DNA from: Candidatus Uhrbacteria bacterium
GTDB taxonomy: Bacteria > Patescibacteriota > Patescibacteriia > UBA9934 > GWF2-40-263
DNA length: 32,627 bases
Direction of reading: 5' to 3'
NCBI GenBank assembly: GCA_016208545.1
Contig: JACQXU010000022.1
Span: 1-32,627 of the forward strand
The notes under the pieces were generated by a model. The model saw only the letters and a program-made list of their open reading frames with translations, did no database searches and had not been told where the DNA came from. This document shows positions 1-17,478 of the stretch, piece after piece. Both the position numbers and the translations under genes were made by a program. How positions within the stretch are numbered: the first letter of the stretch is position 1; each line of letters starts with the position of its first letter.

Positions 1-815
1 TTTATTTCTTCAGGGCTACATGTCGCATAACGAAGTTTCACTTGTTCAGCAACGTCAATTGAAGTTCTCAAGCCAAGAGCAATATCTGAAGTAATATGGT
101 CAGACCCAATCGGTAAAACTGAAGTGTGAAGAACATCGCCTTCTTCATAAACAACTAAAGACGTAGTTGATGCGCCAATGTTTACAACACAAACACCGAG
201 TTCCTTCTGACGATCTGACACAACAGCTTCTGCTGTTGCGAGAATTGAAAAAACTAAATCTTCGATATTCAATCCGGTTCGATATACTGCTTTTGTGAGA
301 TTTTTAATTTGTGAACCCAAACCTTGAATGATAAGCGCATCAACTTCAAGTCGAATTCCGTTCATTCCAACCGGATCTTTAACACCGCGCTGACCATCAA
401 CAATAAAACTTTTTGGAATAACGTGAATTATCTCGTAATTTGTCGGCGTCGCGACTGTTCGAGCGGCTTCGATTGCGCGCTCAACATCTTCTTCACGAAT
501 TTCACCGTCGCTTCGCCCGACTCCAATCACACCTCTTGATTCTTGTGAAATGATGTGCCCGCCGCTTATTCCGACCCAAGCTGAATTGATTGGAACGCCA
601 GTGATTCGTTCAGCTTGTTCAAGCGCGCGAGAAACAGAGGAAACTGCGTCTTCCAAATTTGTGATTGTGCCTTTATTCACGCCAGATGAAGGAACCTCAA
701 CAGCGCCGATGATGTGCATCTGCTCTTTTCCGTCAGATGACGGAACCAGTTTTCCAACCGCCACACGCACGGCATGTGAACCAACATCAAGCCCTGCATA
801 GATTTCTTCGGTCAT
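1..815 (-). CDS. ftsA: Cell division protein FtsA (C-terminus truncated by window edge)
   Basis: Reverse-strand translation from ATG at 815 reads MTEEIYAGLDVGSHAVRVAVGKL...GTITNLEDAVSSVSRALEQAERITGVPINSAWVGISGGHIISQESRGVIGVGR...; typical FtsA actin-fold N-terminus and SHS2 region. Open to base 1, so absent from the ORF track. Confidence 0.93.
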   Translation of the reverse strand, partial: MTEEIYAGLDVGSHAVRVAVGKLVPSSDGKEQMHIIGAVEVPSSGVNKGTITNLEDAVSSVSRALEQAERITGVPINSAWVGISGGHIISQESRGVIGVGRSDGEIREEDVERAIEAARTVATPTNYEIIHVIPKSFIVDGQRGVKDPVGMNGIRLEVDALIIQGLGSQIKNLTKAVYRTGLNIEDLVFSILATAEAVVSDRQKELGVCVVNIGASTTSLVVYEEGDVLHTSVLPIGSDHITSDIALGLRTSIDVAEQVKLRYATCSPEEI

Positions 816-816
816 A

Positions 817-953
817 CCCGGTAGTACAACAATGATACTTATATTTGTTAGTGTTTCTTTGACTGACATTGTTACGACATCTTACGTATGGAGTCGTACA
901 ATCTTTATTAATACACAGCAGAACAGGAGACAGATCATTGTTGTCCTACCGGG
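817..953. mobile_element. MITE-like 137-bp element, copy 1 (20-bp imperfect terminal inverted repeats)
   Basis: Begins CCCGGTAGTACAACAATGAT, ends ATCATTGTTGTCCTACCGGG (reverse complement with one mismatch). Flanked by CATA at 813-816 and 954-957. Confidence 0.7.
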
Positions 954-957
954 CATA

Positions 958-1094
958 CCCGATAGTACAACAATGATATTTATATTTGTTAGTGTTTCTT
1001 TGACTGACATTGTTACGACATCTTACGTATGGAGTCGTACAATCTTTATTAATACACAGCAGAACAGGAGACAGATCATTGTTGTCCTACCGGG
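958..1094. mobile_element. MITE-like 137-bp element, copy 2 (tandem, about 2 substitutions from copy 1)
   Basis: Same sequence as 817-953 except CCCGA/CCCGG and ATATTTA/ATACTTA. Flanked by CATA at 954-957 and 1095-1098. Period exactly 141 bp. Confidence 0.7.
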
Positions 1095-1126
1095 CATACT
1101 CATACTTTTCTTCAAGTATAGCTCGT

Positions 1127-17292: not shown

Positions 17293-17478
17293 ACTATAGA
17301 CTTCACACTATGAAACAGGACTTAGAAATAAGACAAAATTGCGCAGGACGCAGTTTTGGAGCATTGAAAAACCACAGCGGTATCCGTAGATACCGTGAGG
17401 ATTTTTCAATGTGAAAAACAAGTTCTGCACAATTTTGGCTATTTATGGAGTCCTGTTTAATAGTGTGAGGTCTATAGT
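17293..17478. repeat. 186-bp foldback (near full-length inverted repeat) element
   Basis: Left end ACTATAGACTTCACACTATGAAACAGGACT, right end AGTCCTGTTTAATAGTGTGAGGTCTATAGT; arms stay similar through CAAAATTG.GCAG.AC and CATTGAAAAA to a central CGGTATC-cgta-GATACCG hairpin (17378-17395). Confidence 0.8.

Follow-up and report, generated by a model that had tools for sequence, protein, structure and literature searches.

Short inverted-repeat elements at the ftsA start codon: probable members of a family that inserts at start codons in Patescibacteria

The two 137-bp units that precede the cell-division gene ftsA in this patescibacterial DNA are probably non-autonomous representatives of a patescibacterial family of mobile elements with inverted repeats, which insert at the start codons of host genes. 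The window analyzed covers bases 1 to 32,627 of contig C43, and its source genome (G000) comprises 817 kb in 57 contigs; all genomes used here are draft assemblies of uncultured organisms. Sequence comparisons indicate that insertion occurs at an NATG (mostly TATG) start codon with duplication of 4 bp, that the gene is left with the adjacent duplicate as its start codon, and that the original one on the upstream side, which keeps the host promoter and leader, has become the start of a reading frame within the element. In longer relatives this frame is that of a GIY-YIG nuclease, read from the host start, and because of these relatives the window elements are best viewed as non-autonomous derivatives of a start-codon-capturing GIY-YIG element. 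To our knowledge, no mobile element is known that targets start codons, uses the host initiation codon to start its own gene and leaves the host a working copy in exchange. A search of the open-access literature returned no earlier report of such elements.

The tandem pair upstream of ftsA

The features of the locus, with one gene-bearing relative further along the contig, are the following.

1..815, minus strand: 5' part of the ftsA coding sequence, cut by the contig end; start ATG at 815-813; TIGR01174, E 3e-81
813..816, minus strand: TATG (CATA on the plus strand) adjoining ftsA and supplying its present start codon
817..953, minus strand: 137-bp non-autonomous element, ftsA-proximal copy
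954..957, minus strand: TATG (CATA on the plus strand) separating the two copies
958..1094, minus strand: 137-bp non-autonomous element, ftsA-distal copy, with 2 differences from the proximal one
1095..1098, minus strand: TATG on the original upstream side, the ancestral ftsA start codon by comparison with the empty site of genome G001
1023..1097, minus strand: 24-codon leader frame MPGRTTMICLLFCCVLIKIVRLHT*, headed by the ancestral ftsA TATG
1115..1120, minus strand: TATACT, a -10-like hexamer by consensus match only
C43:45771-46072, same contig but outside the window: gene-bearing copy at the adk start codon, with only a GIY-YIG frame inside

The original prediction described two 137-bp units with 20-bp inverted ends lying between three copies of CATA, and this arrangement was confirmed. 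The pattern of the terminal repeat occurs four times in the window against zero expected in shuffled sequence, and the unit folds with a z-score of -4.2 as DNA and -5.2 as RNA. It had also been proposed that the duplication regenerates the ftsA ATG. This is borne out by the last three letters of the ftsA-proximal TATG, which are the start codon of a protein whose TIGR01174 match begins at residue 6 and whose orthologue in the same-genus genome G001 (Candidatus Uhrbacteria NC_groundwater_421) is 97.8% identical, starting at residue 1. The leader frame headed by the ancestral TATG is found again at 956-882, and its start coincides with the position of the nuclease start in the gene-bearing relatives. 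The TATACT hexamer lies 16 nt before the ancestral TATG in the window, compared with 14 nt at the empty G001 site. Either unequal exchange or a further insertion, this time into the regenerated start codon, could have produced the tandem arrangement.

Copies, empty sites and target genes

Copies of the unit elsewhere in the genome, which the original prediction had proposed to look for, are numerous: G000 holds 14 complete copies, a truncated one at a contig end and one that another insertion has split, while five are present in G001 and one in G002. In G001, which was read whole, the regions upstream of infB and infC match those of G000 up to one TATG with no insert, and the insert is missing as well from ftsA, which likewise has a single TATG, from rpmE and from other orthologues. 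No occupied site is common to G000 and G001. Together, the further copies, the empty sites and the lack of common occupied ones indicate that the unit is a mobile element that duplicates 4 bp, as originally suggested. The pattern named beforehand as contrary to this reading, a unit absent elsewhere and conserved at ftsA, was not found in G000 and its same-genus relative. A second subfamily, also short and sharing the outer ends, is represented by C51:1903-2030 in G000 and C7:8204-8327 in G001, both at start codons. In GTDB contigs, the only named Uhrbacteria assembly matched by the exact pattern was G001, and in a phylum sample the 3'-end pattern of the window subfamily followed by TATG occurred in G000 only, apart from one probable chance match; TTC-type ends are spread more widely. 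Complete CCCAGTAGTACAACTTC element ends that have no partner adjoin two further G000 regions, C5:1-130 with tRNA-Gly-like fragments and C35:7781-7801 near a tRNA gene.

The original prediction treated the position at a start codon as peculiar to ftsA, but it proved instead to be a rule across the whole family. Read in gene orientation, all 22 of the datable copies in G000 and G001, both fully read and with the sites of the second subfamily taken in, end in a TATG whose ATG starts the next gene. Targets in G000 include ftsA, an ATP-grasp gene, a riboflavin-kinase-like gene, infB, rpmI, rpmE, gyrB/parE, infC, rpsL, ileS, grpE and a permease gene, as well as adk for the gene-bearing copy; in G001 they include cysS, secF and a secD-like gene. 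Many of these identities and start positions were verified against NCBIfam. Searching the phylum with the ends of the G000 gene-bearing copy uncovered related elements, also at start codons, in G008 (rpmB, miaB, parB), G578 (rpsT, glgA, a sugar-transferase-like gene), G716 (rpmI and others), G495, G543, G403 (rpsP, rpsQ, rplE, an rpsA-like gene and others, flanked by TATG, AATG or CATG), G163 (rpsE) and G319. With these further genomes the tally is 50 of 52 sites, or 39 of 40 when sites found only with patterns ending in TATG, which are biased to such sites, are left out. The exceptions are a CATA beside a subtilase start in G008 (L258) and a TAGG site in G166 (L272). The same gene was in two cases hit by different elements in different genomes (grpE in G000 and G543, rpmI in G000 and G716). 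No motif beyond NATG was found in the sequence flanking the insertions; many of them lie, as judged by eye, 7-16 nt downstream of a TATACT-like hexamer.

GIY-YIG nuclease genes in the longer relatives

The longer relatives hold a single gene, which encodes a GIY-YIG nuclease of about 95 amino acids. Eight gene-bearing copies with inverted ends were found at start codons in G000, G495, G543 (two), G578, G319, G403 and G166, and the first 14 bp of the G000 copy at adk are the same as those of the short elements. Full-length relatives with the same ends, which the original prediction had proposed to look for, were thus found; their gene, however, codes for this nuclease, a candidate mobilizing enzyme, and not for the transposase expected. 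In seven of the eight copies the nuclease frame runs from the position of the host ATG, where the G000 copy has ATT; in the remaining one (L294, G166) the frame is out of register with the host ATG. The terminal repeat supplies the codons for the first residues of the nuclease (PGSTTS, for example). G403 has 2 extra nt after the host ATG and 1 extra nt in the terminal repeat, so that the frame from the host ATG is preserved.

Membership of these proteins in the GIY-YIG family is indicated by PF01541 matches of E 1e-14 to 1e-16 for the five nucleases scanned and by the motif residues, which are invariant in an alignment of five proteins from gene-bearing copies. In a 58-row tree, six start-codon-element nucleases from six genomes form one clade (99/96), with the L309-L294 pair making up another lineage; only after this tree had been built was L294 recognized as a start-codon element. 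Most other GIY-YIG genes in the relatives showed no such ends, and the claim is therefore limited to the clades that have them. As a mechanism, we propose that the nuclease would cut NATG targets and element ends and so drive insertion, with the short copies being moved in trans.

Several GIY-YIG loci have other arrangements. L318 (G543) has 19-bp inverted ends and lies directly after the apparent ATG of a murC-like gene, which seems to start again within the element, at an ATG that overlaps the stop codon of the nuclease. L303 (G495) is inserted near the 5' end of the coding sequence of a dTDP-glucose-dehydratase-like gene, and the 3' end of the element holds a recoded copy of the first codons by which this gene is restored. 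In L305 (G578) and L304 (G403), the GIY-YIG gene is enclosed by long inverted repeats that bear no relation to the CCCGGTAG ends.

Alternative explanations and known systems

Insertion might take place at any TATG, with only the events at start codons surviving selection because those within genes are lethal and TATG is common at starts. TATG is indeed enriched there, with up to 566 at starts against 436 outside ORFs in G000 and 636 against 546 in G001. Even with the generous G000 baseline, however, 22 of 22 at starts has a p of ~3e-6 (~3e-19 against all TATG). Moreover, a TATA-flanked family in the same genome has only about 5 of 22 members near a start (Fisher p 9e-7 against the start-codon elements), so intergenic insertions elsewhere are tolerated, and we regard this explanation as unlikely. 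Somewhat less plausible still is mobilization by a conventional transposase that has no relation to the GIY-YIG protein, the nuclease merely riding in some copies. MITEs usually depend on a transposase, and we know of no GIY-YIG enzyme that acts as one. Against this, no Y1 or DDE_Tnp_1 transposase, the two families searched, scored over the cut-off in G000 (a genome 92% complete), and the gene-bearing copies contain nothing besides a nuclease whose N-terminus comes from the terminal repeat.

A cis-regulatory RNA leader common to a regulon of translation and replication genes would account for the many ribosomal protein and translation factor genes among the targets and for the strong hairpin next to the AUG, since 31 of the 33 short elements are predicted to fold into a terminal stem. 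This reading is nevertheless very improbable: the direct repeats and empty sites indicate insertion, orthologous conservation between G000 and G001 is missing at the occupied sites, Rfam gave nothing meaningful at the locus, and the stem shows a single compensatory pair among 29, with broken pairs present. As covariation support was not found, the stem may be only a by-product of the inverted ends. An assembly artefact is hardly credible as the source of the tandem copy, given the single copies at many other genes in several independent genomes, and a pure assembly duplication appears unlikely because the two copies differ.

Start-codon insertion by a mobile family is the preferred reading, and it bears on translation of the host gene. 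In most short elements both UAUG copies are predicted to pair at the base of the stem, concealing the downstream AUG. Ribosomes starting at the captured upstream ATG and reading the leader frame would open the stem, and the host gene would be translated by coupling or re-initiation. A bolder version, which we consider unlikely, is that no DNA motif is read and start codons are instead recognized in their own right, by way of the mRNA, the initiating ribosome or the initiator tRNA, and that many small GIY-YIG genes in Patescibacteria belong to a phylum-wide class of start-codon parasites. On this view, as the UAUG can pair with its own copy at the foot of the stem, each insertion would make a built-in translational switch.

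Free-standing GIY-YIG homing endonucleases, such as the Seg proteins of phage T4, are encoded beside host genes, and in this the start-codon elements resemble them. Homing, however, copies into allelic sites, whereas the start-codon elements have inverted ends, a 4-bp duplication and many non-allelic sites with only NATG in common. For UPF0213 and similar small GIY-YIG genes in other bacteria we know of no element ends. Proteins of this group (PDB 1zg2, 1ywl) are the closest solved structures by sequence to the element nucleases, but UPF0213 proteins of other bacteria come from ordinary-looking single genes, unlike the element-borne ones. IS200/IS605-type (Y1) and PATE/REP elements do not fit the 4-bp duplication or the lack of a Y1 hit in G000, and no Rfam match to a group I or II intron was obtained in the region. 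The description as MITEs does agree with the short length, terminal inverted repeats, lack of a functional transposase gene, target-site duplication and empty sites. Longer GIY-YIG-bearing relatives with the same outer ends were found, and their nuclease may be the mobilizing enzyme. Prokaryotic MITEs such as Correia elements are likewise short, gene-less, inverted at their ends, flanked by a target duplication and present in many copies near genes (PMC10969869). The start-codon elements differ in targeting the start codon itself and in having a longer relative that encodes a GIY-YIG nuclease, and the text of that review contains neither "start codon" nor "GIY-YIG" nor "TATG" (PMC10969869). 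The rRNA genes of CPR bacteria, the same phylum, also carry non-intron insertions encoding GIY-YIG proteins and uncharacterized ORF-less ones, mostly <200 bp (PMC11270868); these lie in rRNA genes, however, and the paper names no start codons and no inverted repeats.

Insertion at start codons would offer selfish DNA a route into small genomes without breaking essential genes, and it suggests what some of the numerous small GIY-YIG genes in Patescibacteria may do. The GIY-YIG nuclease becomes a candidate transposition enzyme of a new type, and the occupied genes are natural test cases for translation behind a hairpin that separates a gene from its original leader.

Other inverted-repeat families are present as well. 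The TATA-flanked family has about 32 full or partial loci in G000, one of them in the window (17299-17472, ~175 bp, TATA on both sides), and occurs in G001 too; at C46:4404-4647 of G000 one of its members splits the permease start-codon element, a nested insertion. A third family, ~151-196 bp with GATC on both sides, lies at C15:3321, C45:7581 and C50:3972 in G000 and at C3:41769, C9:43308 and C10:8369 in G001. A fourth, with ends like GAGACCTCTGCAAAACTC, was found at C13:19082, C32:1630 and C41:2697 in G000 and at C1:59560 and C8:43418 in G001.
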